Source: an uncultured Eubacteriales bacterium (GTDB lineage Bacteria > Bacillota > Clostridia > Lachnospirales > Lachnospiraceae). Taken from it: DNA of 40,454 nucleotides. The position numbers and the translations under genes are program-made. The notes under the pieces are model-generated. The model was not told the DNA's origin. It did not search any database and was given only the letters and a program-made list of their open reading frames with translations. The DNA lies in the NCBI GenBank assembly GCA_900317515.1, contig ONHA01000024.1, positions 1 through 40,454 on the forward strand, in the 5' to 3' direction. Each line of letters begins with the position of its first letter. Within the stretch, counting starts at the first letter, position 1. Shown here piece after piece: positions 6,676 to 37,048 of this stretch.

Positions 6676-8315
6676 TGGCGGAGGAGAAGATGGGGGAAAA
6701 CTTTGAAGATGAGGAGATAAAGGAGGAGGGATTGTCATTTCTGACAATCCCGGTCATCATTGCGGGGCTGGCGATCCTCATCTGCGCATTCATCTTTCTG
6801 AAGATCACCATGGGAAGGCTGGATGAGGCGGAGACGGCGGCAGCCGGTGCAAAGACTGACGCGGAAGCCGCGGAAGGCAGCGTCCTGCCGGAGATGCTGC
6901 TCACGCGCGTAAACGAGAGCTGGTACCGCCGGCTGGGCGATGAGCAGCCCGCGGCGGCATCTGTCTACGGCCGGATCGGGCTGAATGAGCGCTCGGAGGC
7001 CGTCTATCCGGCACTCGCGGAGGCTCTTGAAAGCTATTCGGAGGAAAATGCCGCCTACATGAAGGCTATCCAGGAGGCAAATTGTAAGTATGTCGCCGCA
7101 GGAGGGCCGAATTGCGAAGAAGAGCTCGTCTATTCGCCGAAGCGGGCGGATGAGAAGGTGTTTTCATTTTCCGTGCGCTACCGGGAGGACGGGTCGGCCG
7201 GCTTCAGGGAGGGGATCTCCGGGGCTGCGTTTGACTCCCGGACGGGAAAGCGTCTCGCCTTCGGGGACGTCGCGGTCCGGCGGCAGGATTTCTGCGACCG
7301 GGCGGCGGCAAGGCTCTTCGAGGCCTACGGGGAGGAGGAGTTCGATCTCGACTCCACGAGGAAGCTCTCGGATTATCTTTTTGAGAACATTCTGCTTGAG
7401 GATATGAACGATCTTTTCACGGTGGACCCGCTGGGCGTAACCGTCTATCTTCCGGCCGGCATCGCCGCGGCGGAGGAGAAGGGCGTGCACATGGTCTCCG
7501 TGTTTTTCTCGGAGTCGCCGAAGATGTTCGCGGAAAATGTGCGGGGCACATCGGACACCTACGTGATGCTGCTCGACAAGGCGCCCTATGTGAATTTCAT
7601 CGATGTCGAGGGCGACGGCGAGCCGGAGACGATCACGGTCGAAGGACTCTCCTATGAGCCCGGCGATCCGGAGGAGGGGCTCTACCCCTACGCCGGCGTC
7701 GCGCTGGGGCTTAACGGGGACGCGAACCGACAGTATTTCGGCTGCGATTCCTTCGAGGCGGCCGTCGTAAAGAACGGGACGTCCACCTATCTCTATGTGA
7801 GCGTCTCCGCGGAGGGGAAAAATGAACTCCTGGTCTACGAAGTGACCGGAGGCAAGGTGGTGTTCACGCAGAAGCAGGAGGATGTGTATTTTCTTGCGGA
7901 GCCGGGGGACGACGCCGAGGAGGAGTGGCTTTTCTCCTGTGACTCGAACAATATTGCCCTCGTGAGCACCATGAACGCGCTCGGCAGCTACAAGGGAACC
8001 CGCAGCTGCCACGTCGGCAAAAACGGGGCGCCCGCGGCGAACACGGACTGGTATATGTGCGAGGATGACCGCTGGCTTACGGCGAGGAAGGAGCTCAGGG
8101 CTCTGGCTCTCGACCAGACGACCCTCGAGCCGACGGGGAAGGAGATCATTGTCCCGGCCGGGGCTTACATGACCTTCTACCGGACGGACAATGCGGAGTA
8201 TGTGGACTTTTTCGCCGGCAACACGACTTACATCCGGTTTGCCTACGGCGCGGCCCATCCCCAGTCGGTGAACGGGGAGACGGCGGCGGAGGTTTTTGAA
8301 GGGATCGAGTATTGA
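6675..8315 (+). CDS. single-pass membrane protein with RsiV-like (DUF3298-type) extracellular region
   Basis: A 546-residue protein with a short acidic cytoplasmic tail, one membrane helix (about residues 23-45, LTIPVIIAGLAILICAFIFL) and a large outer domain. The first 250 residues of that domain have the layout of DUF4163/DUF3298 proteins such as RsiV and PdaC: SFSVRYREDGSAGFREGISGAAFDSRTGKRLAFGDV resembles their strand pattern with a G-x-x-L-x-x-x-D turn. The C-terminal half is unassigned and resembles the lipoprotein at 16667-18790 (ELRALALD then IIVPAGAYMTFYRTD in both). The ATG overlaps the stop of the ABC gene by one base, so it belongs to that operon and may be a partner or sensor of the exporter. 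No sigma factor gene lies beside it. Function unknown. Confidence 0.6.
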   Translation: MAEEKMGENFEDEEIKEEGLSFLTIPVIIAGLAILICAFIFLKITMGRLDEAETAAAGAKTDAEAAEGSVLPEMLLTRVNESWYRRLGDEQPAAASVYGRIGLNERSEAVYPALAEALESYSEENAAYMKAIQEANCKYVAAGGPNCEEELVYSPKRADEKVFSFSVRYREDGSAGFREGISGAAFDSRTGKRLAFGDVAVRRQDFCDRAAARLFEAYGEEEFDLDSTRKLSDYLFENILLEDMNDLFTVDPLGVTVYLPAGIAAAEEKGVHMVSVFFSESPKMFAENVRGTSDTYVMLLDKAPYVNFIDVEGDGEPETITVEGLSYEPGDPEEGLYPYAGVALGLNGDANRQYFGCDSFEAAVVKNGTSTYLYVSVSAEGKNELLVYEVTGGKVVFTQKQEDVYFLAEPGDDAEEEWLFSCDSNNIALVSTMNALGSYKGTRSCHVGKNGAPAANTDWYMCEDDRWLTARKELRALALDQTTLEPTGKEIIVPAGAYMTFYRTDNAEYVDFFAGNTTYIRFAYGAAHPQSVNGETAAEVFEGIEY

Positions 8316-14160: not shown

Positions 14161-14937
14161 ATGCACATGCTGGATATGCATCTGCACATCCTTCCCGGTG
14201 TGGATGACGGCTCTTACAGCGAGGAGTTATCCCTCGAGATGGCGGAAATAGCCCTGAATTCGGGGATCGACTGCGTCATCGCCACACCGCATGCGAATCA
14301 GATGGGAAGATTCGAGAATTTCTATACGCCTGAATTCGCCGCAAGGTTCGACCGGTTCAGGGAGATCCTCGCGGAGAACAACCTTCCGCTTACGGTACTC
14401 CCGGGGATGGAGATCATGGCCTCGAATGACATGGCGGAGAAAATAAAGGACGGGCGCCTTATCGGCCTTAACGGTACGGACCGCTACCTCATAGAGTTTC
14501 CGTTTCATGCGGATCTTGCCTGGATCAATGACCGGATAAACGATGTGACGGCCCTGGGCAAAACGCCTGTCATCGCCCATGCGGAGCGCTTTGACTGTGT
14601 GAAGACCGATCCCGACGTCACGGGCGACTGGATCGGGATGGGCGCCATCATACAGGTGAACCGGGGGAGCCTCTTCGGCCGGTTCGGGAGGGGTTCATTT
14701 TCCGCAGCGGATTACCTCCTCGGCGAAGACCTGGTCGATCTCATCGCATCGGACGCGCACGGCGTCGAGTGGCGGGCACCGTTTCTTATGGACGCGTTCG
14801 ATGAGATCGCGGCCCGATTCGGGATCGAACGTGCGAGAAGGCTGCTTGAAATAAACCCCACGGCAATCGCGGAGGGGACGGATATAATACGAGAAAAAAC
14901 CGTTAGAAAATCCCGCACCGGCTTTGTGTGGGATTGA
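14161..14937 (+). CDS. PHP-type tyrosine-protein phosphatase (CpsB/YwqE-like)
   Basis: 258 residues of the PHP metallo-phosphatase family that removes phosphate from the tyrosine-rich tails of capsule-synthesis kinases. Metal ligands are visible in order: DMHLHILPGVDDGS at the N-terminus, ATPH (residues about 40-43), GMEI, IAHAERF and ASDAHG near the C-terminus. GGAGG precedes the ATG at 14161. It is followed 20 bases later by a Wzz-like membrane protein, the usual partner type in exopolysaccharide operons. No bacterial tyrosine kinase (CpsD/YwqD) or glycosyltransferase is in the window, so its substrate here is not evident. Confidence 0.9.
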   Translation: MHMLDMHLHILPGVDDGSYSEELSLEMAEIALNSGIDCVIATPHANQMGRFENFYTPEFAARFDRFREILAENNLPLTVLPGMEIMASNDMAEKIKDGRLIGLNGTDRYLIEFPFHADLAWINDRINDVTALGKTPVIAHAERFDCVKTDPDVTGDWIGMGAIIQVNRGSLFGRFGRGSFSAADYLLGEDLVDLIASDAHGVEWRAPFLMDAFDEIAARFGIERARRLLEINPTAIAEGTDIIREKTVRKSRTGFVWD

Positions 14938-14957
14938 AGAAAGAAGGATATGTCAAT

Positions 14958-16226
14958 ATGGCTGAAAATGTAAAGAAGAGCGGTACGGAGAGTTATCCCG
15001 TAACGACCGGCATCATAGGTGAGATCAAAAAATGGTACTGGGTGCTCCTGGCAATCCTGAGCCTTACGGCGACGGCTTTCTATGCGACGGCAAAGATCAC
15101 GTATAAGCCGGTCTACCAGTCCTACGCATCGCTGACGCCTTCCTTGAGGGACGCAGCGACGGCCGATACGATCGAGAAGCTCGCCGGGGAGCTCATGGAT
15201 AAGGCGAAGGACGGGCGGCTTGCGGAGGCCCTCGGGGAAACAGCAGCGGCGGACACCGATATCCGCTTTGTGGCGGACGGCCTCGATCTGGCCGTGAGCG
15301 TCAGGGCTGCCTCTCCCGAAGCATCCTACGAGACCCTGAGGGGGATCGCGGACAAGGGTGTCGAACTTCTGGACGAAAAACCGGATTATTCGCTGGTCCT
15401 GACAGCGGACAGCGGAATGCCGAAGACCGTGACGAATCCCCTGGATACAAGCGCGGCGGCAATGCGGGGGCTCCTTGTCGGCGCCGCACTTTCGATCGCA
15501 TTTCTTTTCCTCGCAATGATGTGGGATAAGAAGAGGGCGGCCGTACCTTCCGTGGAATCCGAGAGCGAACCTGCCTACGGGAGCATGGCTGAGGCGGCTC
15601 CGAAGACAGAGAATCCGCCTGTGCCCGAGTTTGCGATGAAGGCAGAACCTGTTTACGAACCTGTGCCCGCTCGCGAAACAGCGGCAGTGTCTGCACCGGA
15701 ACCGGTCATTGAGCCTGTGCCTGCACCGGTCATCGCGGAAACTCCTGCCATGGAGCCTGCCGCAGCCCCGGAGAAGTCCGGAAATGAAAAACCGGCGCAC
15801 ACCGTCGGCGTTCCGGCGGATCTTGCCAGATTTGCGTCGGCGCTCGGCGCTTCATTTATCGGAGCTTTGAAGATCCCCGATGAGGAGCCCGGGGAAGAGA
15901 CTTCCGGGCTTTCTGAGGTGACGGAGGTTTCGGCTCCCGCGGAGGAGGCTGTTTCTGTTCCGGTGGAGGAGGAAGTCGCTTACGCTCCTGCGGAGGAAGA
16001 AGTCGTTTCCGCTCCTGCGGAGGAGGAAGTCGTTTATGTTCCCGAAGAGGAGGAAGAGTCTCTTTCTGTCCCCGCTGAGGAAGAGGATGCCCGGGATGAG
16101 GCGCCTGAAACGTCTTCCGACAAGTCTGCCGATGACGAGGAATGGGATCCGGCGAAGACCACCCTCTCGAAGGAGATGTGGGAGATCGCCAAAGAGATGG
16201 GTATGCTGGACGATTTCCGGATCTGA
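14958..16226 (+). CDS. Wzz/YveK-like chain-length regulator with acidic repeat tail
   Basis: 422 residues. Two membrane helices (about 26-48 and 169-190) flank an outer domain of about 120 residues with a proline-containing stretch before the second helix, the layout of Wzz/CapA polysaccharide co-polymerases. The cytoplasmic C-terminal half is a low-complexity Pro/Ala/Glu region with tandem units such as APAEEEVVSAPAEEEVVYVP (about residues 325-375). It ends with WDPAKTTLSKEMWEIAKEMG, a short conserved-looking helix. This tail is not found in ordinary Wzz proteins and has no tyrosine cluster. The ATG at 14958 has AAGGA upstream. It is likely cotranscribed with the phosphatase. Confidence 0.6.
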   Translation: MAENVKKSGTESYPVTTGIIGEIKKWYWVLLAILSLTATAFYATAKITYKPVYQSYASLTPSLRDAATADTIEKLAGELMDKAKDGRLAEALGETAAADTDIRFVADGLDLAVSVRAASPEASYETLRGIADKGVELLDEKPDYSLVLTADSGMPKTVTNPLDTSAAAMRGLLVGAALSIAFLFLAMMWDKKRAAVPSVESESEPAYGSMAEAAPKTENPPVPEFAMKAEPVYEPVPARETAAVSAPEPVIEPVPAPVIAETPAMEPAAAPEKSGNEKPAHTVGVPADLARFASALGASFIGALKIPDEEPGEETSGLSEVTEVSAPAEEAVSVPVEEEVAYAPAEEEVVSAPAEEEVVYVPEEEEESLSVPAEEEDARDEAPETSSDKSADDEEWDPAKTTLSKEMWEIAKEMGMLDDFRI

Positions 16227-16503: not shown

Positions 16504-16666
16504 GTGTGCCGGAGCTTCCTGGAAGTATTTTTTCGGGCTGAATCGGATGTTTTGCAGCTTGCGCTGTTCATTTTCCGAATAATAGGGTATGATAGAGAGG
16601 ACAAAGGATCGTGACAGCGGAATGGCGAGACCCCTCTTTGGAAAAACAGATGAGAGGAACTGCAAA

Positions 16667-18790
16667 ATGAAAATCGTAAGAAAGAGAGTAAGAAAGATGG
16701 TACTTCTATCAGTTGGCACACTGCTTTCGGTACTGCTTACGGCCGGGTGCGGCACGCGGCAGCCCCCGGCCGCCGATCCTGCCGGCACATCCAAAGGAGC
16801 TGACAGCGGTACGTATGCAGTAAGAACGGAACTTAAGGAGGTTTATTCGGCGGACCCGGAAAAAAAGATCGGCGTGTACGGACGCTACACGGAGCTCTCC
16901 GCGGATGGCGAGGTTCCGGAGACACTCGCCCGGGTTCTTGGCGAGGCGAATGCGCGCGCAAAGGGGGATATTGAGAGAAAGGCCGCAAAGTTTCTCGCGG
17001 AGAACGAATTCCCGGCAGCGGCGGAAGAATCCGCAGAGACGGAGCATTTCCGCTACCGCAATATTTCCCACATTGTGAACGTGACGCGGGCGGATGATGT
17101 TATATTGAGCCTGCTTGAGACGGAGATGGAGTCCGGGATCGGCGACGCCGAGGGACAGTATCCGTACGTCTCAAAGACCTGCGTCTTTCGCTCGGCGGTT
17201 TACGATACGAAGAGCGGAAGGGAGCTTGCACTCACGGATTTCCTCGCGGATGCGGGGAGCCTTACGGAACGCCTTGACGGCGCGCTTTCCAATAAATACG
17301 GAGGCAGCGGGCTCTTTACGGGCAGGGAGGTCCCGGCGTGGACTGCGGATTATCTGGGGCTGCATTTTTATTTCGACGGGAAGATGATCCCGGAAGAAAA
17401 AATGCAGGCGCTCGGAATCTATACGCGCAGAGCCGTGCATGTCTCCATTCCCTACACGGCGCTGGACGGGCCGCTTGCTGAGACGGCCGCAAAGACACCG
17501 GAAAGTTTTATCGCGGCGGTCGAGAAAAATACAGACTACGCTCTGCCGCACGACAACCGGACCATCCGCGTCTCTAAGGCATTGAATTCCGGCTATGAAC
17601 AGTACCGCATCGAGATCCGGGGCGGCGAAAAAGAGGCGGCCTGGTGGCTCGAATACGCGGATGACGAGTCGGAATACTATGTGTTCCGGGCGCAGGAGAA
17701 GTATTATTTCTATCGCCTGGAGGACAATGAGGACCGGGGATACGTGTACAGCTTCGCGAGCCCCGACGGCGGCTTTGAGCGCTTTGCGAACCAGAATGCC
17801 CAGTGCTTCGACTCGTTCTTGCACGAACTCTACCTGGCGGTTCCCTCCAATCCGGAGTGCGTCCACATGCGCGAGCGGGCGCGGAAGTTTATGGATTCCA
17901 GAAGCGGCCTTAACACGTACTACGCGCCGAACGGACATTACTCCTTTATGCCGGAGCCGGGGCGCGGGCGCACATGGCTTCATTTTGCGCTGATCGACGA
18001 TGCGCTCGCGCTTGACAGCCGCAATGTCGGTCTGAGGCTGCTGCACGAGATCAGTGCCGTGAAGCTGGATGAGCAGGGAAATGCAGGAGACGAAATAACG
18101 ATCCCGGCGGGAGAGGTGCTGCGCTTCCTCAGCGTCGACGGGGAGGGCGAACTCTACTATTACATGTCGCGGGAATACAATTCGTACAAGTCCGGGGCAA
18201 GGAACTATTACTATGACTGTGAGCTCTCCGATGGGAGCCGGGTGCGCATCGTCACCGAGTATGAAAACAGCTTTTTCGTGGACGGGATGTACATGGACCG
18301 GATCGGGGAACCTGTGACGATCGGGGCGGCGCAGTACGAGGCCGGGCTTGCCGAAATACCGGACCACTATGTCACAATCGGCGGAAAAGAGTATAAGCTG
18401 ATCCGGGATCTGTCGAACAAGACGGAATCCGGCGAGGAAATCGATTTCGCGGGCGACGTCTGGTGGGAGGTCGAAAACTATGTCGGAACCTTTACCGCGG
18501 AGGAAGGGGACGCAAAGCTCGTCATCTCCGGGAACGGGGAAGTGAGCTTTGACTATGAGGGCAAAATCTTCAAGGGACAGCTTCCCGAAAAGCGGTATTA
18601 CAACACTTATGTGCGGGTCTATATGGAGGCGGAGTATGAGAGACGCACGTTCAGCATCATCGTGCGGGAAAATCTGCCCGCGCATGATCCGTCGTTTACA
18701 AAGATTCGCTTCTACTCCGAAGGCCTGCCGGCCACGAACGAGCCTTCCCATGTGCCGCCGATCACGGTTGATCTGGTCAGGGAGCCCTGA
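16667..18790 (+). CDS. lipoprotein with RsiV-like (DUF3298-type) region
   Basis: 707 residues. A basic N-terminus and hydrophobic stretch end in the lipobox LLTAGC, so it should be a lipid-anchored surface protein. Residues 40-320 share the DUF4163/DUF3298 layout: HFRYRNISHIVNVTRADDVILSLL, AVYDTKSGRELALTDFLADAGS and a later KMIPEEKM stretch. It resembles the membrane protein at 6675-8315 in this region and again at EISAVKLDEQGNAGDEITIPAG. A further 200 residues at the C-terminus (DHYVTIGGKEYKLIRDLSNK onward) are absent from that paralogue. The ATG at 16667 has GAGGAA and begins the signal peptide; upstream in-frame codons do not. A TATGAT box at 16588-16593 is a possible -10. Function unknown. 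Confidence 0.65.
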   Translation: MKIVRKRVRKMVLLSVGTLLSVLLTAGCGTRQPPAADPAGTSKGADSGTYAVRTELKEVYSADPEKKIGVYGRYTELSADGEVPETLARVLGEANARAKGDIERKAAKFLAENEFPAAAEESAETEHFRYRNISHIVNVTRADDVILSLLETEMESGIGDAEGQYPYVSKTCVFRSAVYDTKSGRELALTDFLADAGSLTERLDGALSNKYGGSGLFTGREVPAWTADYLGLHFYFDGKMIPEEKMQALGIYTRRAVHVSIPYTALDGPLAETAAKTPESFIAAVEKNTDYALPHDNRTIRVSKALNSGYEQYRIEIRGGEKEAAWWLEYADDESEYYVFRAQEKYYFYRLEDNEDRGYVYSFASPDGGFERFANQNAQCFDSFLHELYLAVPSNPECVHMRERARKFMDSRSGLNTYYAPNGHYSFMPEPGRGRTWLHFALIDDALALDSRNVGLRLLHEISAVKLDEQGNAGDEITIPAGEVLRFLSVDGEGELYYYMSREYNSYKSGARNYYYDCELSDGSRVRIVTEYENSFFVDGMYMDRIGEPVTIGAAQYEAGLAEIPDHYVTIGGKEYKLIRDLSNKTESGEEIDFAGDVWWEVENYVGTFTAEEGDAKLVISGNGEVSFDYEGKIFKGQLPEKRYYNTYVRVYMEAEYERRTFSIIVRENLPAHDPSFTKIRFYSEGLPATNEPSHVPPITVDLVREP

Positions 18791-25352: not shown

Positions 25353-25390
25353 GTCAGACATCCGGGAAAAACGGTTGTCTGACTTCTTTG
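25353..25390 (+). terminator. hairpin between malQ and thyA
   Basis: An 8-bp stem GTCAGACA/TGTCTGAC (25353-25360 with 25376-25383) with an inner CCG/CGG pair, followed by TTCTTTG. It looks like a weak terminator. No promoter fits between it and the thyA start 28 bases later, so read-through from malQ or a promoter inside malQ must serve thyA. Confidence 0.55.
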
Positions 25391-25410
25391 CAGTGACCCG
25401 GGAGGTAAAC

Positions 25411-26259
25411 ATGAGCAAGGCTGACCAAATCTTTATCGACATGTGCCGCGACATCCTTGAAAACGGCACGGATACGCGCGGCGAGAAGGTACGCCCCCAC
25501 TGGGAGGACGGCACCCCGGCCTACACAATAAAGCGCTTCGGCGTCGTAAACCGCTACGACCTCCGGGAGGAGTTTCCGGCGATCACGCTGAGAAGGACGG
25601 CGCTGAAGAGCGCGATGGACGAGATCCTCTGGATCTGGCAGAGAAAATCCAACAACATTCATGACTTAAAGCCCCACATCTGGGACGAGTGGGCGGACCC
25701 GGACGGCTCGATCGGCAAGGCCTACGGCTACCAGATCGGCACCAAGTCCCGATATAAGGAAGGGATGTTCGACCAGACGGACCGGGTTTTATTTGATTTG
25801 AAGAATAACCCCTACAGCCGCCGCATCCTGACCTCGATCTACAACCATCACGACCTCTCCGAGATGAATCTCTATCCGTGCGCCTGGTCCATGACCTTCA
25901 ACGTCACCCAGAACCCGGGTGAGGAGAAGCTCACGCTGAACGCGGTGCTGAACCAGCGCTCCCAGGACGTGCTCGCGGCCAACAACTGGAACGTCTGCCA
26001 GTACGCGCTCCTTCTCATGATGTTCGCCCAGGCGTCCGACATGATCCCGGGGGAGCTCCTCCATGTGATCGCGGACGCGCACATTTACGACCGGCATGTG
26101 GATATCATCAAAGAGCTGATCTCGCGGCCGACCTACCCGGCGCCGAAGGTACGCCTGAACCCCGAAATCAAGGATTTTTATGCGTTCACGACGGATGACC
26201 TCATCGTGGAGGATTATCAGCACGGACCGCAGATCAAGGACATACCGATCGCCATCTGA
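25411..26259 (+). CDS. thyA: thymidylate synthase ThyA
   Basis: Methylates dUMP to dTMP with methylene-tetrahydrofolate. 282 residues of the Bacillus ThyA / phage phi3T ThyP3 subtype, shown by HIWDEWADPDGSIGKAYGYQIG and the late block NPEIKDFYAFTTDDLIVEDYQHG. The catalytic Cys is about residue 157 in LYPCAWSM, a variant of the usual PPC motif. RSQDVLAANNWNVCQYALLL carries the Asp/Asn that bind dUMP. GGAGG precedes the ATG at 25411. folA follows after 12 bases, the classic pairing because ThyA makes dihydrofolate. Confidence 0.95.
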   Translation: MSKADQIFIDMCRDILENGTDTRGEKVRPHWEDGTPAYTIKRFGVVNRYDLREEFPAITLRRTALKSAMDEILWIWQRKSNNIHDLKPHIWDEWADPDGSIGKAYGYQIGTKSRYKEGMFDQTDRVLFDLKNNPYSRRILTSIYNHHDLSEMNLYPCAWSMTFNVTQNPGEEKLTLNAVLNQRSQDVLAANNWNVCQYALLLMMFAQASDMIPGELLHVIADAHIYDRHVDIIKELISRPTYPAPKVRLNPEIKDFYAFTTDDLIVEDYQHGPQIKDIPIAI

Positions 26260-26271
26260 CGGAGGAACTAT

Positions 26272-26772
26272 ATGAATTTAATTGCAGCCGTAGACAGCAA
26301 ATTCGGCATCGGCCGGGACAACAAGCTCCTGGTCTCGATCCCGGAGGACATGAAATTTTTCCGCAGCACGACCATGGACAAGACCGTGATCCTGGGCCGC
26401 AGGACACTGGAATCATTTCCGAACGGGGCTCCCTTAAAGCGCCGCCGCAACATCGTGCTGACCAGAAAGGATATTGAAATCCCGGGGGCGGAGGTCGCCC
26501 ACTCGGTGGAGGAAGCGTTGGAGCTCGTAAAAAATGAAGACCCCGACAACGTCTTCGTGATCGGGGGCGAGACGGTCTACCGCGCGTTCCTTCCCTACTG
26601 CAGCCGGGCTTACCTCACAAAGATCGACTATACCTATGAGGCGGACGCATTTTTCCCGAATCTGGACGAGGATCCCGAGTGGGAGATCGAGGAGGAGAGC
26701 GAGGAGAAGACCTGCTTCGACCTCTGCTACGCATTTGTCACATACAGGAGAAAAGAGGGAACTCAGAAATGA
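26272..26772 (+). CDS. folA: dihydrofolate reductase
   Basis: Reduces dihydrofolate from the ThyA reaction to tetrahydrofolate with NADPH. 166 residues. LIAAVDSKFGIGRDNKLLVSIPEDMKFFRSTT holds the Met20-type loop and the substrate-binding acid (Glu in IPEDMKFF where Asp or Glu is usual). VILGRRTLESFP and RRNIVLTR bind NADPH, and VFVIGGETVYRAFLP is the conserved GG block. GGAGG precedes the ATG. Its stop overlaps the ispG start by four bases (ATGA), so the genes are coupled. Confidence 0.93.
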   Translation: MNLIAAVDSKFGIGRDNKLLVSIPEDMKFFRSTTMDKTVILGRRTLESFPNGAPLKRRRNIVLTRKDIEIPGAEVAHSVEEALELVKNEDPDNVFVIGGETVYRAFLPYCSRAYLTKIDYTYEADAFFPNLDEDPEWEIEEESEEKTCFDLCYAFVTYRRKEGTQK

Positions 26773-27831: not shown

Positions 27832-30800
27832 TTGAGAAGTGTTGAGATGGAGTTTCCGAAGGCCTTTCCGAACCTTGCCTTAAGTTCGGAAGCCGGTGAG
27901 CTGATGGAGCGGGCCCGTGTTTCAAGGATCGCGGTGAACCAGGCGAAAAACCGCATGCGGGTTTACATAACATCGGATAACTGGATCAAAAAAGAATATA
28001 TATATGAGGTCGAGGACGCCATCGCATCGCAGATATTCGACAATGCCGGGATGGAGGTGAAGGTCGTCGAGCACTTCCGCCTGTCCAACCAGTACAACCC
28101 GAAGAACTTCTACCGGCTGTACCGGACCTCCATGCTCCTGGAGCTCAAGCAGGTAAGCCCGCTGCTGCACCAGACCTTCCTGCATGTAAAGCTCGATTTC
28201 GGCAAGGACGGCCAGATCGGCGTGGAGCTTCCGGATACGATGATCTCCAGGGACCGTGAGGGAGACATCGTCGACTACCTGGACAAGGTCTTCGCGGAGC
28301 GGGCGGGCTTTACGAATGTTCACTTCGTGACGTCCTATGCCGGACGGGAGGAAGGAAAGACCTTCGCCGACGAGGACGAGAAGATCGCCAACCGGGTCCG
28401 CGAGGTCGTAAAGAAGAACGAGCGCCGCAGGGAGAAGGCCGCCGAGGAAAATGAAAAGCAAAAGAAGCTCTCCAATGCCGCCGAGAAGACCTACCGGCAG
28501 CAGAAGAGCTTCATTTCCAATGACCCGAATGTCATTCTGGGCAAAAGCTTCGAGGGCGAGCCGGTCCCGATCGAGACGCTGGGGGAGGATCCCCACGAGG
28601 TCGTCGTGAAGGGCGAGGTTTTCGCCGTCGAGACCCGGGAGATCCGGAGCGGCAAGGTCATCATGAACATTTCCATCACCGACTACACGGACAGTATCCG
28701 GATGAAGCTCTGGGTGCTGCCGGAGGAGCTGGACCAGTACATGGAGGTCTTCAAAAACGGGGCCTGCTTCCTGGTCCGGGGCATGATGGCGTTCGATTCC
28801 TTCGAGAAGGAATTCATGATCAAGACCGTCTATGCGGTCAAGAAGATCGGGAGCTTCAAGGAAGGCCGCATGGACAACGCCGCGGTCAAGCGCGTGGAGC
28901 TTCACTGCCACACCAAGATGTCCGACATGGACGCGGTCTCCTCCGCGAAGGACATCATCAAGCAGGCAAAGCGCTGGGGCATGAAGGCCCTTGCGATCAC
29001 CGACCACGGGGTCGTGCAGGCGTTCCCGGAGGCCCACCACGCCTCCGACGAGAAGGATCCGGATTTCAAGGTGATCTACGGCTGCGAGGGCTACCTCGTG
29101 GACGACATGGAGAACATCATCGAGGGTCCCGATGCGCGGAGCGTCCGGGAGGATGCGGTCGTCGTCCAGACGGTCGCGACCGGAACATCCGCGGTCCGGC
29201 ACGATCTCATCGAGCTGGCCGCCGTGAAGGTCAAAAAGGGACTTCCGGCCGAAACCTTCAGCGCCGTCATCAACCCGAAAAAGCCGCTTCCCTTTGCGTT
29301 CACGAGGGAGACGGGCATCACCGACGAGATGACAGCCCGCGGGGAGGAGCTTAGAGAGGTGCTGGAGCGCTTCCTTGCATTTGCAGGGGACGCACCGCTC
29401 ATCGCGTTTGACGCACCGCTTATGGCGGGGTTCATTTCCGAAAATGCAAAGCGCCTTGAACTCGCCTTCAACCCCGCGGATCACACATTTGTGGACATCC
29501 CGGGCTGCATCCGCTACCTCTCGCCGGAGGTGAGCCGCAGCTCTTTCGACAAGCTGATCAAGGCTCTCAAGATCCCCTGTGCGGACCCCAGAAGAGCGGA
29601 GCCGCGGGCCCAGGCGCTCGCAAAAGTCTGGGCGTCCCTCCTCGATGTGATGAAGAAGCAGGAGGTGGAGACCTACGCGGACATCAACGAGCGCGGCCTC
29701 ATCTCGGAGGAGCGCATCCGCAACCTGCCCTACTACCACATTATCATACTGGCGAAAAATGAAGCCGGCCGCCGCAACCTCTACACGCTGGTCTCGGAGT
29801 CGCATCTCAAGTACTTCAAGAAGCGGCCGCGCATCCCGCGCTCGCTGCTTAATGCACACCGCGAGGGCCTCGTCTTAGGTTCCGCCTGCTCGGCGGGCGA
29901 GCTCTACCAGGCGATCCTCAAGGAGAAGCCGGCGGCGAAGATCGCCCAGATCGTGAATTTCTACGATTATCTCGAGATCCAGCCGGTCGGCAACAACGAA
30001 TACATGGTCCGCGACAAGGTGGCCGGCGTCGAGACCGACGACGACCTCCGCGAGATCAACAAAAAGATACTGAAGCTGGCGGACGATTTCGGGAAGATGT
30101 GCGTGGCGACGTGCGATGTTCATTTCCTGAATCCGGAGGATGCGATCTACCGGTCGATCATCCAGGCCGGCCACGGGTTCAAGGACGAGGGCCAGCCGCC
30201 GCTCTACCTCCACACGACGGAGGAGATGCTCGAGGAGTTCGCTTACCTTGGCGAGAAGAGGGCCTACGAGGTCGTCGTGGAAAATACAAACAGGATCTCC
30301 GACATGATCGAGCAGATCTCGCCGATCCACCCGGACAAGTGTCCGCCGGTTATCGAGAACTCCGCGGAGGACCTTGAGAACATGTGCTACGAGACCGCGC
30401 GGAAGATCTACGGGGACGATATCCCGCCGCAGGTGAAGACGAGGCTCGACAAGGAGCTCCACTCGATCATCGGCAACGGCTACGCGGTCATGTACATCAT
30501 CGCCCAGCGTCTGGTCCAGAAGTCCCGCGAGGACGGGTATCTGGTCGGCTCGCGAGGCTCGGTCGGGTCCTCCCTGGTCGCGACCATGTCCAACATCACA
30601 GAGGTCAACCCGCTGCCGCCCCACTATCTCTGCCCGGAGTGCCATTTCGTGGACTTCGATTCGGAGGAGGTAAAGGCCTACGGCGGCCGCTGCGGCGCGG
30701 ACATGCCGGACAGAGTCTGCCCGAACTGCGGGGCGCCTCTTAAAAAGATGGGCTTCGACATACCGTTCGAGACCTTCCTCGGGTTCAAGGGCGACAAGGA

Positions 30801-32235
30801 GCCTGATATCGACCTCAATTTCTCAGGCGATGAGCAGGGCGTGGCCCAGGCCTACACCGAGGTCATCTTCGGCAAGGGCCAGACCTTCAAGGCCGGCACG
30901 ATCGGCACGGTCGCGGACAAGACCGCCTACGGTCTCGCGATGCATTACTTCGAGGAGAAGGGCATCAGCAAACGGCCCTGCGAGCTGGAAAGGCTCGGCG
31001 CGGGCTGCGTCGGCGTCCGGCGGACGACCGGCCAGCATCCGGGCGGCGTCATCGTTCTGCCCAAGGGGATGGATATCAACTGGTTCACGCCGGTCCAGCA
31101 CCCCGCAAACGACATGACGTCGGATATCATCACGACGCATTTCGACTATCACTCGATCGACCGAAACCTCCTGAAGCTCGATATCCTCGGACACGATGAT
31201 CCGACGATCATCCGCATGCTGGAGGACCTCACCGGGACCAACCCGCTGGAGGTGCCGCTGGACGATCCGGGCGTACTCTCGCTCTTCACCGGGACGCAGG
31301 CGCTCGGCGTCACGCCCGAGCAGATGGGCGGGGTCGATTTAGGGGTCCTCGGGGTTCCGGAGTTCGGAACCAACTTTGTCATGGGCATGCTCAGGGACAC
31401 GAAGCCGAAGACACTCTCGGAGCTGATCCGCATTTCCGGCCTGTCCCACGGCACCAACGTCTGGCTGGACAACGCCCAGTACTTCATCAAAAACGGGGAC
31501 TGCACGCTGGGTACCGCCATCTGCACCCGCGACGACATCATGCTGAACCTGATCGCGTGGGGCGTGGAGCCGGAGCACTCCTTCAAGATCATGGAGGCGG
31601 TTCGAAAGGGCAAGGGCTTAAAGCCCGACCAGGAAAATGAAATGCGCGAGCACGGCGTGCCGGAATGGTACATCGAATCCTGCAAGCGTATCAAGTACAT
31701 GTTCCCGAAGGCGCATGCGGCGGCCTACGTCATGAACGCGTTCCGCATCGCCTACTATAAGATCAATTATCCGCTGGCTTACTATGCGGCCATGTTCTCG
31801 ATCCGGGTCACGACCTTTGACTATGCGATCATGGCCCGCGGCCGTAAGGTCATGGAGGACTATGCGGAGAGCCTGCGGGAGAAGGAAGCTCTCTCGCCTA
31901 AGGAAGAGGAAATGCTGAAGGACATGATGATCGTCCGCGAGATGTATGCGAGAGGGTTTTCATTTCACACGCTGGACCTCTTCAAGGCGAAGGCGACCCG
32001 CTTTACGATTGTCGACGGTAAGCTCATGCCGTCGATCAACTCCATCGCCGGGCTCGGGGAGAGCGTGGCGGTGCAGATCGAGGAGGAGGCTCAAAAAGGG
32101 CCCTTCCTCTCCAAGGATGATTTCCGGGTGCGCACCAGGGCATCCGGCACGATCATCGAGCTCCTCGAGAGCCTCGGCATCCTGTCGGGGATCCCGGAGA
32201 CCAACCAGATATCACTGTTTGACATGGTAATGTGA
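27832..32235 (+). CDS. polC: DNA polymerase III alpha subunit, PolC type, with degenerate exonuclease domain
   Basis: Gram-positive replicative polymerase, 1467 residues. In order: N-terminal domain, OB fold (about 250-335), PHP domain part 1 (VELHCHTKMSDMD, ITDHGVV, YGCEGYLVDD), inserted exonuclease domain (about 437-610), PHP part 2 (ATCDVHFLN), zinc finger CPEC...CPNC, palm with PDIDLNFSGDEQ and GTIGTVADKTAYG, fingers and C-terminus ending NQISLFDMV. The polymerase acids are intact. In the exonuclease domain the scaffold is kept (SAV...IELAAVKV, TGITDEM), but motif I D-x-E is Q446/V448, the motif II Asp is M531, and the motif III His and Asp are R587 and R592. The TTG start at 27832 has AAGGAG; an ATG at 27847 has no ribosome site. 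It begins 4 bases after ispG. Confidence 0.95.
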   Translation: MRSVEMEFPKAFPNLALSSEAGELMERARVSRIAVNQAKNRMRVYITSDNWIKKEYIYEVEDAIASQIFDNAGMEVKVVEHFRLSNQYNPKNFYRLYRTSMLLELKQVSPLLHQTFLHVKLDFGKDGQIGVELPDTMISRDREGDIVDYLDKVFAERAGFTNVHFVTSYAGREEGKTFADEDEKIANRVREVVKKNERRREKAAEENEKQKKLSNAAEKTYRQQKSFISNDPNVILGKSFEGEPVPIETLGEDPHEVVVKGEVFAVETREIRSGKVIMNISITDYTDSIRMKLWVLPEELDQYMEVFKNGACFLVRGMMAFDSFEKEFMIKTVYAVKKIGSFKEGRMDNAAVKRVELHCHTKMSDMDAVSSAKDIIKQAKRWGMKALAITDHGVVQAFPEAHHASDEKDPDFKVIYGCEGYLVDDMENIIEGPDARSVREDAVVVQTVATGTSAVRHDLIELAAVKVKKGLPAETFSAVINPKKPLPFAFTRETGITDEMTARGEELREVLERFLAFAGDAPLIAFDAPLMAGFISENAKRLELAFNPADHTFVDIPGCIRYLSPEVSRSSFDKLIKALKIPCADPRRAEPRAQALAKVWASLLDVMKKQEVETYADINERGLISEERIRNLPYYHIIILAKNEAGRRNLYTLVSESHLKYFKKRPRIPRSLLNAHREGLVLGSACSAGELYQAILKEKPAAKIAQIVNFYDYLEIQPVGNNEYMVRDKVAGVETDDDLREINKKILKLADDFGKMCVATCDVHFLNPEDAIYRSIIQAGHGFKDEGQPPLYLHTTEEMLEEFAYLGEKRAYEVVVENTNRISDMIEQISPIHPDKCPPVIENSAEDLENMCYETARKIYGDDIPPQVKTRLDKELHSIIGNGYAVMYIIAQRLVQKSREDGYLVGSRGSVGSSLVATMSNITEVNPLPPHYLCPECHFVDFDSEEVKAYGGRCGADMPDRVCPNCGAPLKKMGFDIPFETFLGFKGDKEPDIDLNFSGDEQGVAQAYTEVIFGKGQTFKAGTIGTVADKTAYGLAMHYFEEKGISKRPCELERLGAGCVGVRRTTGQHPGGVIVLPKGMDINWFTPVQHPANDMTSDIITTHFDYHSIDRNLLKLDILGHDDPTIIRMLEDLTGTNPLEVPLDDPGVLSLFTGTQALGVTPEQMGGVDLGVLGVPEFGTNFVMGMLRDTKPKTLSELIRISGLSHGTNVWLDNAQYFIKNGDCTLGTAICTRDDIMLNLIAWGVEPEHSFKIMEAVRKGKGLKPDQENEMREHGVPEWYIESCKRIKYMFPKAHAAAYVMNAFRIAYYKINYPLAYYAAMFSIRVTTFDYAIMARGRKVMEDYAESLREKEALSPKEEEMLKDMMIVREMYARGFSFHTLDLFKAKATRFTIVDGKLMPSINSIAGLGESVAVQIEEEAQKGPFLSKDDFRVRTRASGTIIELLESLGILSGIPETNQISLFDMVM

Positions 32236-32246
32236 GGACGTAAGCT

Positions 32247-35200
32247 TTGATCAGGACGTTAGGAGAAGAGAAGGACAGGAGAAAAGATAGCGGCTTTACC
32301 GCGATCACGGAGCTTTACGTGAACGCGGAGGCGCCCGCCGGGGATGTCAGGCGGGACAAACTGCGCATCAGGAATGCCGGCGAAAGCCGGCTTCTGGGAG
32401 ATGTCTTTGTCACCACTCCCCGGATCCGCGTGAAGGAGAAAAAAATCAGAGGAGCGGAATTCGAGGTTCCCTACCTGGTGAATCTCGAAGGCCTTCAGCC
32501 CGGCGAAGCGGCGGAAGGAGAGATCCTCTTTTCGACAAATGACGGGGAGTACAAGGTCCCCGTCAGGGTGCGCGCGGCGGACAGGAAGCTCGTCGGCGGC
32601 GGCCGGGAGATCAGGAATCTTGACGACTTTACGGCGCTTGCCGAGCAGAATCCGGCCGAGGCGCTCCGGATCTTTGAGAGCGCGGGCTTTTATAAGCTCC
32701 TTACCGGGGAAACGACCCGCCTTCATGCGCTGGCGCAGGGGCTTAAGAGAAGTCCGGTCACCCGGGGGAGCATGGAGGAGTTTCTGGTCCTTGCAGGCAA
32801 AAAAGACCCCGTTCACCTCAGCGGGGGCTTTAAGGCGAGGGAATTTCCTGCGGTCAGCAGCTCCGAGAAGGAAGTGCTTCGGCTTGTGAAGAGCGGCTGG
32901 GGCTGCACGGATATCAGGGTCGAAGCGGAAGGAGAGTTCATCGAGCTTCCGAAGGACCGCTTCAGCGAGGAGGATTTCTTCGGCTCGGTCCTCGACATCG
33001 AGTACATCATACGGGCGGAGAAGCTCTCCCCGGGCAGAAATTTCGGCAGGATCCGGATCATCTGTCCGGAGGGAGACTTTGAGCTGCCGATATCGGCCAG
33101 TCCGGTCAGTGCCGGGGATGCCGATGAGGAGCCGGACACGAAGAAGATCAGAGCCCGGCTCATGAGAGACCTCATTGATTATGGCACGGGGGTGAGAACC
33201 GCGGACGAATTTGCCAACCGGACCCGCAAGAATCTTGCGGTCTGGCCGGGCGGGGAGGCTCCGTCTGCCCTGCAGCTTTTGGGCGTCTACGCGGAGGAGA
33301 AGGCAGGCCGGCATGAGCGCGCGCTCGAGCTTCTGCGCGGCATCTCGGCTCACGATTTTACCGGGGAATCCGCGTCCGTGAAGGCAGGCTTCCTCTATAT
33401 CGGCCTCATGACCGGGCAGCTCATAAATGACGAGGAGACGATCATCGAGCGCATCCGGGAGTGGCAGACGCGGAACCGCGAGGATCTGTACCTCACCCTC
33501 ATGCGCCTCATGACGGACCCGACGCTCAGGAGAATGCCGGACCGGCAGAGCGTCTATTTCTACGAACTCTATGATATGGGCGTGAACAGCCCGCTCCTCT
33601 ATCTTGCGGCTCTGCGGTTTTATGCCGAGCATCCGGAGCTCTTTACGAGAGTTGATGCGTTTATGTGGCACATGCTGGCCTGGGGAGCCAAGAATCTCTA
33701 TCTCCCCGAGGAGCTGGCGCTCAAGGTGTCCTACCTCACGATCAACGACCGGAAGACCGGGAGCATCGCCCTGAGGGTCCTCAAAGCCGCCTTCAAACTC
33801 TATGACAGGGACGCCATCCTGACCGCGATCGTGCGGCTTCTCATCCGGTTTGCGCCGGGAGACGCGGAGAGCTTCCCGTGGTTCTACAAGGCGGTGGAGC
33901 GGGAGATACAGGTCACCCGCCTCTATACGTGCTTTATCGAAGCCATGCCGGAGATAAGCCGGGAGCCGATCCCGAAGGTGATTCTCCGCTACCTGATGCG
34001 GGAGGATCATATTTCCGAGAAAAAGAGGGCCTTCATCTACGCCTCGGTCATCAAGAACCGGACCCGCGACCCGGAAACCTACGGCATGCTCCTTGAGATG
34101 ATGCGGGAATTTGCCGATGAATCCCTTATGAGAGGGCGCATCGGGCGGGACTATGCGGTCCTGTACCGGAATTTTGAAGAAACGATCGGCGAGACCGGGC
34201 GGGGTATCCGCCTCGCGGAGAATATCTTCACGGAGCGCATCTTTACGGACGACCCGCGCGCCCGCGAGGCAGCTGTCTACCACTACGGGCTGAAGAACCC
34301 GGATATCTATCCGCTCCGGAACGGGGAGGCGCTGATCAGATGCTGGACGGACGATGCGGCGATCCTCTTCTCCGACGGGCGCGGCAGATATTTTGCCTCG
34401 TCGGTGGTCTACACCCGGGAGACGCTCATGGAGAAGGAGCCGATGCTGTCAGCGCTTCTGGCCTTCGGCATCCCCTACCCGGGACTCTGGCTCTCCTCGT
34501 CGGTGCGGAACGGAAAGCTTAAGGCCGTGGACGTTCGAACGGTGGATGCCTTCCGGGAGATGGAGAGGAGCGGTCTCTTTGCCGACGACTTCCGGGATAC
34601 GGTCCGGAAGATGCTGCTCACCTATTATCTTGACAATGCGGAAAATGAAACCATCGACCGCTACCTCACCGAAATCGATCTCGACGATTACGCGAGGGCC
34701 GACCGGGCCAGATTTATCACCCTCCTCATTCGAAGAGGGTTCGAGGAGGCCGCTTACGAGCTTCTGCGCCGCTGCGGCGCTGAGGGCGTTACGCCGGAGG
34801 ATCTCCTGACCTGTGCCGATGCGATGACGGAGGCATTTGACAACGCCTACGACGAGACGCTTCTCTATATCTGCATGCAGGCGCTTCGGGGCGAGGCGGT
34901 CAGCGAGGCAGTCCTCATCTATCTGGAGCGCTGGTTTGACGGGGCGATTGCCGATATGCTGCTCATAAGGAAGCACCTTGCCAGCATGGAGATCACGAGC
35001 GGCAACCTGGATGACCGGATACTCCGCCGAGCGGCCTTTACGGGGACGCTCCTGCCGCGGGATGCGGGCGTGCTTTTCGCCTACGAGAAGCTGGCGGGGA
35101 ACCCGGAGGTCTCCTCGGCCTACGCGGATTTTGAGTGCAGGAAGACATTCGAGGAGGACGGCCTTATCAGCCCCGACACGGCGTACCTGGTCTCCCACCT

Positions 35201-35786
35201 GATCGACAGAGGCGTTCCCGTTCCTCTGGAGGACCGGCTTGCGCTGCTCAAGTTCCTTGTGAAGAAGGAAAAACGGACCGCCCACGAGGAGGTCCAGATG
35301 GATGTCCTCCTCGAGGAATGCGTCGGAAAGGGTCTGCGCTTCCCGTTTTTCAGCGAACTGTCCGATGCGGCGCTGCGCCAGTACCACCTCGAGGACAAGG
35401 CTTTCGTCTTTGTCCCCGCGGAGCCGGGCGACGAGGTCGATCTCATCTATGCGCTCTCCTCGGGCGACGAGGAGAAGCATTTCCGCCGGATCCCCCTGAA
35501 GGAGATCTACCGGGGGCTCTTCGGCCGGGAATTCATTCTCTTCTACGGCGAGAAGCTGACCTGGTCGGCGGTGGTCCGCCATAAGGGAGAGGAGCGAACG
35601 ATACCGGAAACCGTCCTTACGGCCGGCCATGTGGACAGCCGGGGCGTGAGCCGCTATCAGCTCCTGAACCAGATACTGGCGGCAAGGGAGAAGGGTGACA
35701 CCGAGACGCTGAACAATAAGATGCGCGAGCTGCGCCGGGCCGAACTGGTCGTCGATGCGCTGTTTAAACTGGAGGAAGAGTCGTGA
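32247..35786 (+). CDS. large helical-repeat protein, DUF5717-like
   Basis: 1179 residues with no signal peptide or membrane helix, so probably cytoplasmic. The first 300 residues look beta-rich (ELYVNAEAPAGDVRRDKLRIRNAGESRLLGDVFV, then a second similar segment near 225-285, RVEAEGEFIELPKDRFSEEDF). From about 310 to 1000 it is a run of helix pairs like an alpha-solenoid (LMRDLIDYGTGVRTADEFANRT, ALELLRGISAHDF and so on). I match it from memory to the DUF5717 proteins of Lachnospiraceae; no function is known to me. The TTG start at 32247 has GAGGA upstream and lies 11 bases after polC. The stop overlaps the next gene by four bases. Confidence 0.7.
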   Translation: MIRTLGEEKDRRKDSGFTAITELYVNAEAPAGDVRRDKLRIRNAGESRLLGDVFVTTPRIRVKEKKIRGAEFEVPYLVNLEGLQPGEAAEGEILFSTNDGEYKVPVRVRAADRKLVGGGREIRNLDDFTALAEQNPAEALRIFESAGFYKLLTGETTRLHALAQGLKRSPVTRGSMEEFLVLAGKKDPVHLSGGFKAREFPAVSSSEKEVLRLVKSGWGCTDIRVEAEGEFIELPKDRFSEEDFFGSVLDIEYIIRAEKLSPGRNFGRIRIICPEGDFELPISASPVSAGDADEEPDTKKIRARLMRDLIDYGTGVRTADEFANRTRKNLAVWPGGEAPSALQLLGVYAEEKAGRHERALELLRGISAHDFTGESASVKAGFLYIGLMTGQLINDEETIIERIREWQTRNREDLYLTLMRLMTDPTLRRMPDRQSVYFYELYDMGVNSPLLYLAALRFYAEHPELFTRVDAFMWHMLAWGAKNLYLPEELALKVSYLTINDRKTGSIALRVLKAAFKLYDRDAILTAIVRLLIRFAPGDAESFPWFYKAVEREIQVTRLYTCFIEAMPEISREPIPKVILRYLMREDHISEKKRAFIYASVIKNRTRDPETYGMLLEMMREFADESLMRGRIGRDYAVLYRNFEETIGETGRGIRLAENIFTERIFTDDPRAREAAVYHYGLKNPDIYPLRNGEALIRCWTDDAAILFSDGRGRYFASSVVYTRETLMEKEPMLSALLAFGIPYPGLWLSSSVRNGKLKAVDVRTVDAFREMERSGLFADDFRDTVRKMLLTYYLDNAENETIDRYLTEIDLDDYARADRARFITLLIRRGFEEAAYELLRRCGAEGVTPEDLLTCADAMTEAFDNAYDETLLYICMQALRGEAVSEAVLIYLERWFDGAIADMLLIRKHLASMEITSGNLDDRILRRAAFTGTLLPRDAGVLFAYEKLAGNPEVSSAYADFECRKTFEEDGLISPDTAYLVSHLIDRGVPVPLEDRLALLKFLVKKEKRTAHEEVQMDVLLEECVGKGLRFPFFSELSDAALRQYHLEDKAFVFVPAEPGDEVDLIYALSSGDEEKHFRRIPLKEIYRGLFGREFILFYGEKLTWSAVVRHKGEERTIPETVLTAGHVDSRGVSRYQLLNQILAAREKGDTETLNNKMRELRRAELVVDALFKLEEES

Positions 35787-37048
35787 ATGAAGTCCGGAAT
35801 ATTATCATAGGCTTTATGCTCGGTGAAGAATGGTCCGATTACTGCTACTTCGACCGTCGGACGGGGGAGCCCGTGTCCCTTTTCCTGAGCGACGGGGCCG
35901 GGGGGGCTCATTTTCCGACCCGGCTGGCCTTTCTGCCGGTGAAAGAGAAGTGGTACACAGGCTCCGCCGCCTCCTTCTACGCGGAGTCCGAGGGCGGGCT
36001 TCTCATAAAGAATCTGTTTTCCGTCGTAAATGGGCACGAGGAGGTGACGCTTGGCTCGTTTACCTTCTCGCCGGAGGATATACTCACCGCCTTCTTAAGG
36101 GAGGCGCTTCGGGCAGCGGGGATCGTCGACCCGGGCAAGAGCATCGGGTGCCTCGCCGTGGCGGTCGATACACTCACGCCGGCCCTTGTGCACAATCTGC
36201 GGGCCGCGTTTGCAGCCCTGGGCTTAAGGCCCGACAGCTGCCGGATCATGAACAGGATGGCTGCATTTTACGGGTTCCTCAAGGGAGAGCGCAGGATGAT
36301 GCGGTCGGGGAACTGTGCGCTTCTTTCATTTTCGGAAAATGAAGTGATCTTCGAAGGCCTGACGGAAGAGTCCGAGGGCGGCGTCATGGTCTCCCGGGCA
36401 GTCCCGCGCAGAGTCTACGAGATCCCGGTGCAGGACGCTAAGCTCTATGACGTGACCACGGCCTCCTTCATAGGCCAGTGCCTCGACGCATCGCCGTTTA
36501 TGAATGTCCTCATCACGGGCAAGGGCTACGACAAGGAGATATTCAGGAAGACGACCGCGGAGATCTGCCGCGGACGGAAGGCCTACCTCGAGTCGGAGCT
36601 GTTCTCGAAAGGCGCCGCCTGGGCAACGTTTATCAGGACCGAGGGGACCGGCGACGACAGCTATTTCGCGGGGCCGGACGTCGTGCCCGCGGAGGTTACC
36701 ATGGATGTCCTGAAGCAGGGACGCCCGGCCGTTCTCTCCCTGATCCCGCGCGGGAGCCGCTGGTATGAGATCGAGGGAAGAGAGCGGATCCTGCTCGACG
36801 GGCGCGAGACGCTGCTCTTTACGATCACGAGGCCCGGCGGACGTGACCGGGCGGAGCTGCCGCTTGAGGGGCTTCCGAAACGGCCCGACAAGGCAACGTT
36901 TCTCATGCTTGAGTACAAGTGCCCGGACGAGGATACGCTCCTGATCACGGCGCGCGATCTCGGGTTCGGCGGGTTTTATCCGTCGGGCGGCCTTTCATTT
37001 TCCATGAAACTCGACCTTGGTGCGGCTGCGCCTTCTAAGGAGGAATGA
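35783..37048 (+). CDS. actin/Hsp70-like protein, DUF5716-like
   Basis: 421 residues, cytoplasmic. The N-terminus VRNIIIGFMLGEEWSDYCYFDRRTGEPVSL looks like the phosphate-1 strand turn of an Hsp70/actin-fold protein. A later pattern follows the chaperone layout: VPVKEKWY-like start of subdomain, VNGHEEVTLGSFTFSPEDILTAFLREALRAAG, then LAVAVDTLTPALVHNLRAAFAALGL, NCALLSFSENEVIF for the phosphate-2 strand and VLITGKGYDKEIF for the adenosine loop. The usual D-x-G and G-x-G-x-S residues are weak, so ATP binding is uncertain. It resembles the DUF5716 proteins of Lachnospiraceae. GTG start at 35783 with GGAGGAAG, overlapping the previous stop (GTGA). Confidence 0.65.
   Translation: MNEVRNIIIGFMLGEEWSDYCYFDRRTGEPVSLFLSDGAGGAHFPTRLAFLPVKEKWYTGSAASFYAESEGGLLIKNLFSVVNGHEEVTLGSFTFSPEDILTAFLREALRAAGIVDPGKSIGCLAVAVDTLTPALVHNLRAAFAALGLRPDSCRIMNRMAAFYGFLKGERRMMRSGNCALLSFSENEVIFEGLTEESEGGVMVSRAVPRRVYEIPVQDAKLYDVTTASFIGQCLDASPFMNVLITGKGYDKEIFRKTTAEICRGRKAYLESELFSKGAAWATFIRTEGTGDDSYFAGPDVVPAEVTMDVLKQGRPAVLSLIPRGSRWYEIEGRERILLDGRETLLFTITRPGGRDRAELPLEGLPKRPDKATFLMLEYKCPDEDTLLITARDLGFGGFYPSGGLSFSMKLDLGAAAPSKEE

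Follow-up and report, generated by a model that had tools for sequence, protein, structure and literature searches.

The PolC-type replicative polymerase of an uncultured Lachnospiraceae bacterium retained an exonuclease domain in which all five catalytic DEDDh residues were replaced. The loss of these residues was a trait of the whole genus. Judged by its sequence, the domain lacks the residues needed for membership among the active DEDDh exonucleases. Our main explanation, to which we give a probability of about 0.6, is that the exonuclease lost its activity before the members of the genus diverged and has persisted as a folded pseudo-exonuclease, that proofreading moved to the PHP site, and that the dead domain acts as a scaffold. 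The gene is located in contig ONHA01000024.1 of assembly GCA_900317515.1 (uncultured Eubacteriales, Lachnospiraceae). Below, the window means the whole stretch of DNA that was analyzed, positions 1-40,454 of the forward strand (40,454 nucleotides).

The polC gene and the catalytic residues of its exonuclease domain

The window ORF was identified as PolC by NCBIfam NF001688, where it scored 1603 bits with the cut-off at 873, and by TIGR01405 (1462 bits). Counted from a TTG codon, the protein has 1467 amino acids, but translation may actually begin at an ATG slightly downstream, within a few codons. In the Pfam layout, the PHP domain (356-711) enclosed an RNase_T domain (450-580). The latter scored above the Pfam cut-off despite the residue loss, with a match beginning at profile position 8. 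The PolC N-terminal domain, the OB fold, the polymerase core and the finger domain were also found, and the HhH match fell just under the cut-off. The window PolC has the polymerase motifs GSRGSVGSS and PDIDLNFS, and so do the genus loci that extend far enough, with the exception of L018, which reads ELDIDLNFS. At the C-terminus, QISLF bears what we take to be a resemblance to the beta-clamp binding motif.

Table 1. Position of polC and of the parts of its product in the window.
Feature	Position	Strand	Basis
polC, PolC-type DNA polymerase III alpha subunit	27832..32235	+	NCBIfam NF001688, TIGR01405
PHP N-terminal half, metal ligands H358, H360, D391, H392, E419	28885..29106	+	Pfam, alignments
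DEDDh-type exonuclease domain without its catalytic residues, aa about 428-626	29113..29709	+	alignments; structural match to PolC 9qpc
PHP C-terminal half, metal ligands H636, C686, D762, H764	29713..30261	+	Pfam, alignments
Polymerase core (PF07733 region), PDIDLNF at aa 991	30370..31191	+	Pfam
C-terminal QISLF	32206..32220	+	read from translation

Gene gcpE (PF04551, 26679-27827) lies directly upstream of polC, and genes for thymidylate synthase and dihydrofolate reductase (25375-26772) lie just upstream of this pair. Downstream of polC (32247-37048), two proteins of unknown function are encoded, DUF5717 and DUF5716. Three other long ORFs of the window, at 6675-8315, 14928-16226 and 16589-18790 (546, 432 and 733 aa), had no Pfam match at E 0.001.

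The window PolC was aligned with 33 loci of its genus and with 16 PolCs (L037-L052) that belong to other families of the order. All 16 read D-E-D-H-D at the catalytic columns, and all five residues were kept in 119 PolCs of the data set from outside the genus. At these columns, the window PolC has Q446 (29167), V448 (29173), M531 (29422), R587 (29590) and R592 (29605). The same register was obtained by phmmer against the solved PolC chains 9qpc and 2p1j. The preliminary description had claimed that the five residues were lost while the domain was kept, and the alignment agreed with it exactly in both numbering and replacements. The residues beside motif II were also changed: H526, N527 and F530 are at 100% in exonuclease-intact PolCs and at 0%, 3% and 3% in the genus.

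A misaligned active site was rejected because the flanking columns (TTG, I-x-D, D555, R561, RA-x-x-x-A) are in register. The columns common to the genus and the exonuclease-intact set, which anchor the register, include 449T, 450T, 451G, 461E, 464A, 470G, 481N, 482P, 496I, 498D, 528A, 534F, 555D, 561R, 563L, 565P, 588R, 589A and 593A. No intact D-x-E, D or H-x4-D set was seen elsewhere in the exonuclease domain of the window PolC. An assembly error of the window genome was ruled out by Lachnospiraceae bacterium UBA3785 (L053, DFFD01000153.1; 80% identity over the query), which reads Q, V, V, H, R at these columns, and by the other genomes of the genus.

The genus was represented by 42 genomes, and the exonuclease region of PolC was readable in 39 of them (the window plus 33 plus 5). 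Outside the 39, PolC was not found in G030, and G031 and G036 had a partial PolC without the exonuclease. Among the 39, 32 kept none of the five catalytic residues and seven kept exactly one (H587 in L004, L006, L008 and L018; D446 in L015 and L032; D531 in L012), with only three of the five positions visible in L018 and L165. This count was made by hand from the rows; repeat records were dropped (L053 = L004, L054 = L031) and L016 was added. As none of the 39 genomes kept more than one of the five, the genus-wide pattern excluded chance. The nearest named records are UBA3785 and uncultured Lachnospiraceae RUG14869 (L054). Certain residues were nearly fixed in the 36 genus rows, namely E493 (92%), R592 (89%), V448 (86%) and D527 (86%), and each of them was at 0% in the exonuclease-intact set.

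Pairwise identity of the exonuclease domain within the genus went down to 25%. A genus-wide state at such identities implied that the loss is old and stable, and it counted against the mutator lineage that the preliminary description had suggested. So did purifying selection on the domain (see below) and the retention of MutS, a MutS_I match being found in 42 of 42 genus genomes (a fragment only in G034). A proofreading-deficient polC allele has been used for building B. subtilis hypermutators, as far as the accessible part of that source goes (PMC11890065), but for the present genus we consider a mutator lineage very improbable.

One genus member had a second, divergent PolC-like protein (L170, G019:C230:6000-12000) in an 800-aa open frame. 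Its exonuclease-like domain lies ahead of the PHP domain rather than inside it, the PHP domain is degenerate and the polymerase motifs are altered. An accessory polymerase, a mobile polymerase or a contaminant contig are possible explanations.

Fold, selection and history of the domain

The length of the exonuclease domain was kept in the genus (median 179 of 181 aligned positions). An AlphaFold model of aa 345-815, built with 60 relatives in which exonuclease-dead and exonuclease-intact proteins were mixed, had a mean pLDDT of 92.3 and a pTM of 0.85. Foldseek matched the model with the solved PolC 9qpc over 479 columns, with an rmsd of 2.7 and a TM of 0.90 (by model length). The predicted position of the exonuclease is thus the same as in normal PolC. 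The model also matched DnaQ domains, including 8h18 (TM 0.88 by target length), 2gui and 2p1j. A DnaQ-like fold is thus predicted to be kept in the dead domain, and the earlier claim to this effect gained support from both the predicted model and the retained length.

The dN/dS values (Nei-Gojobori) of the exonuclease domain were 0.06-0.35 in 10 genus pairs, which shared members and included one pair with saturated dS; an 11th pair was identical and is outside this range. For the palm, the values were 0.01-0.12 in the nine genus pairs where they were computable. Among nine exonuclease-intact pairs, dS was mostly saturated and exonuclease dN/dS was computable in only three (0.01-0.08). The ratio of exonuclease to palm tree length was 2.6-4.2 in three genus sets, two of them nested in the first, versus 1.3-2.5 in four exonuclease-intact sets. 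The domain in the genus is under purifying selection that is relaxed but not neutral, and it evolves faster than in relatives.

It is possible, with the odds somewhat against it, that the domain is a decaying relic, heading for deletion and without a function of its own. The raised tree-length ratio would fit a relic, as would the genera that adjoin the genus in a quick tree, four with the exonuclease deleted and two with it eroded (support 90). Against this, the length was kept, dN/dS was below 1 and the new residues were nearly fixed.

The genus formed a single clade with a support of 100. Its exonuclease-deleted and exonuclease-eroded neighbors raised the possibility that the inactivation is older than the genus. 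In a FastTree analysis of all rows, the same neighborhood also contained exonuclease-intact genera (L067, L127, L222, L224). A single origin of all exonuclease losses was disfavored by parsimony, which required at least seven changes of the trait, while an AU test did not reject a single exonuclease-lost clade (p = 0.113). The losses likely arose independently.

The PHP site and other candidate proofreaders

In the accessible text of PMC12926913, the PHP site is defined by nine ligands, HHDHEH[C/H]DH. The window PolC reads HHDHEHCDH, and the same nine ligands were found in all 37 genus genomes in which the nine positions were readable. In L018 and L165, four of the nine positions were visible, and all four were kept. 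The PHP metal motifs are therefore intact, as the preliminary description had held.

We infer that the PHP site is the proofreader, one of the options raised in the preliminary description, because no other nuclease-type site is still conserved in the window PolC, and because a site with the same nine ligands carries out the proofreading of mycobacterial DnaE1. The DnaE1 of M. tuberculosis proofreads through its PHP domain, and D226N abolishes the activity (PMC5636811, in the part of it available to us). By motif, D226 would correspond to D762 of the window PolC, where an alignment places N in Geobacillus PolC (3f2b); this difference also points to the PHP site. Tighter selection on PHP was not clearly seen in the genus: the PHP/palm tree-length ratio was 0.94-1.22, versus 1.03-1.57 in exonuclease-intact sets. 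The ratio was looser, 1.79, in an exonuclease-deleted set.

According to our main explanation, the DEDDh exonuclease of PolC would have been inactivated ahead of genus diversification. The zinc-type PHP site, in PolC itself and/or in its partner DnaE1, would then take off mismatched primer ends, and MutS-dependent repair would back up this proofreading. The dead domain, within the PHP loop, would be kept mainly as a scaffold or wall beside the PHP site. Such a scaffold role is plausible. In DnaE1, the loop that corresponds to the site of the exonuclease insert in PolC lines the groove leading to the PHP site, as the available part of PMC5636811 describes, so a dead PolC domain at this place could still serve as a wall. 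However, the domain was deleted in 10 other Lachnospiraceae genera. It is thus not indispensable in PolC, which argues that a scaffold is dispensable. In a more specific and rather doubtful version, the inserted Mg-type DEDDh domain lost its catalytic function and came to form a wall or gate for the zinc-type PHP site, which is ancestral and would again be the sole proofreader of PolC, and R592, E493, D527 and V448 would mark the new role. If this were true, the usual order of proofreaders in the Firmicutes replicase would be reversed in a whole genus.

Alternatively, PolC of this genus might work without any proofreading, its fidelity resting on base selection and mismatch repair and its PHP domain being otherwise used, e.g. 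for structural zinc. The universal MutS_I match would suit such a polymerase. In addition, PHP proofreading in a PolC is argued here by analogy with DnaE1, and a structural role has been proposed for the PHP domain of E. coli Pol III (PMC3666897, as far as its accessible text goes). However, all nine PHP ligands were kept throughout the readable genus genomes, whereas nine other genera changed PHP beside an intact exonuclease. The latter indicated that an intact exonuclease leaves room for the PHP site to decay. We therefore regard a PolC without proofreading as unlikely.

Proofreading in trans, by the PHP site of DnaE1 or by a DnaQ-like protein, seemed quite unlikely to us. The window's own genome has a DnaE1 (L160) that keeps its PHP motifs, read by eye, and extra RNase_T proteins occur in some genus members. 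However, these extra proteins are patchy across the genus. The only RNase_T match in the own genome besides PolC was a 319-aa KapD-like protein, and no match to a DEDDy exonuclease (Pol I-type, PF01612) was found there. The KapD-like protein was present in 12 of 20 exonuclease-intact, 8 of 13 exonuclease-lost and 3 of 6 PHP-changed genera tested. Being equally common with an intact PolC, it gave no sign of a replacement role. A DnaQ replacement was sought in the own genome and the genus and tested for association with exonuclease loss, and none emerged; the earlier idea of a DnaQ-like protein acting in trans was not supported.

Exonuclease and PHP losses in Lachnospiraceae and Clostridia

We also surveyed 299 Lachnospiraceae genomes, nearly every one from a different genus. 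An exonuclease match was present in 284 of them, in some cases not in PolC. From them we read 28 of the best other-genus loci, 54 further listed loci and 29 of 30 low-score loci, and also 25 genomes with no hit or the lowest scores, where PolC was found in 19. Both sites were intact in all 28 of these high-scoring loci. In 10 Lachnospiraceae genera (L085, L086, L089, L090, L091, L093, L095, L096, L097, L099), the exonuclease was deleted and PHP was intact. The exonuclease was retained with changed catalytic residues in L092, L098, L128 and L183, with PHP intact, and in L094, with the N-terminal half of PHP unreadable. Two catalytic residues remain in L098 and two in L183. In L183 (G218), the three Asp are replaced by R, Q and Y, and the Glu, the His and the scaffold are still there; its inactivation is apparently recent. 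The reverse state, changed PHP ligands beside an intact exonuclease, was observed in L100, L129, L131-L134 and, in another family, L047. Any deviation was scored as a change, and L131 differs by a single residue.

A class-wide sample gave a PolC match in 148 of 157 genomes, and 109 loci were read. Both sites were intact in 92, the exonuclease was deleted in nine and eroded in four, and PHP was changed in two (L316, L319); the remaining two were unscorable, L237 being cut by the contig end and L299 having masked bases. The eroded remnants, in L317 and L318 (family f61) and in L321 and L322 (family f58), were accompanied by intact PHP ligands.

No main PolC with both sites lost was found among the readable loci; the divergent L170, which looks altered in both, was left out of the tables and trees. 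Taking 26 exonuclease-lost genera, nine PHP-changed genera (both hand counts) and 209 both-intact sequences as 244 units, 0.96 double losses were expected and none was observed. The difference is not significant (P(0) = 0.36, L170 left out), and a statistical exclusivity of the two losses was thus rejected. As about one double loss was expected, the reciprocity of exonuclease and PHP loss among main PolCs is only suggestive.

The exonuclease-intact PolC of most Clostridia read shares its domain order and predicted fold with the window PolC, as well as the polymerase motifs and the PHP ligands, but has the five DEDDh residues that the window PolC lost. According to the available part of PMC3919608, 6% of PolCs lack the exonuclease insertion, and nearly all of these come from Clostridia and Negativicutes. 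They too have no DEDDh proofreading site, and their PHP ligands were intact in the examples read; in them the domain is absent, whereas the window PolC has it at full length, with a predicted fold and under selection. As exonuclease-less PolCs were already known, the surprise is limited. Mycobacterial DnaE1, as far as it is described in the accessible part of PMC5636811, shares the nine-ligand PHP site and has no working DEDDh site in the polymerase. It differs in having no insert and in that its PHP activity was demonstrated, whereas that of the window PolC is proposed. A DnaQ-like domain kept in a catalytically dead state is also found in PolA2 (APEX), many PolA1 and PolB2 (PMC12926913, available part), which, unlike the window PolC, are not Pol III alpha subunits.

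In its accessible part, this 2026 census states that replicative alpha subunits inactivate PHP, not DnaQ (PMC12926913). The genus is a counterexample to the rule as given there. What is new is that one proofreading site of a replicase was lost by a route that the accessible part of the census did not report. Our literature searches, which took in few subscription papers, brought up no description of a PolC exonuclease kept in a dead state. Clostridial PolCs usually have two candidate proofreading sites, and this genus of about 40 species, together with the PHP-changed genera, is a natural knock-out series for the role of PHP in PolC. In addition, a proofreading domain in the annotation of a PolC does not guarantee that the enzyme uses it for proofreading.

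Some minor observations were made in the same survey. In L055 (Oscillospiraceae), a protein whose alignment is not that of a PolC has a degenerate exonuclease-like stretch (VKTTG, TGITDEML). Five genomes of family f29 (G366, G400, G449, G470, G512), of 0.8-1.1 Mb and 98-100% complete, had no PolC match at E 1e-60; perhaps their replicase works without PolC. A PolC match in G487 (C15:11813-13156) contains one in-frame TGA, which may be an assembly error or mark a broken gene.
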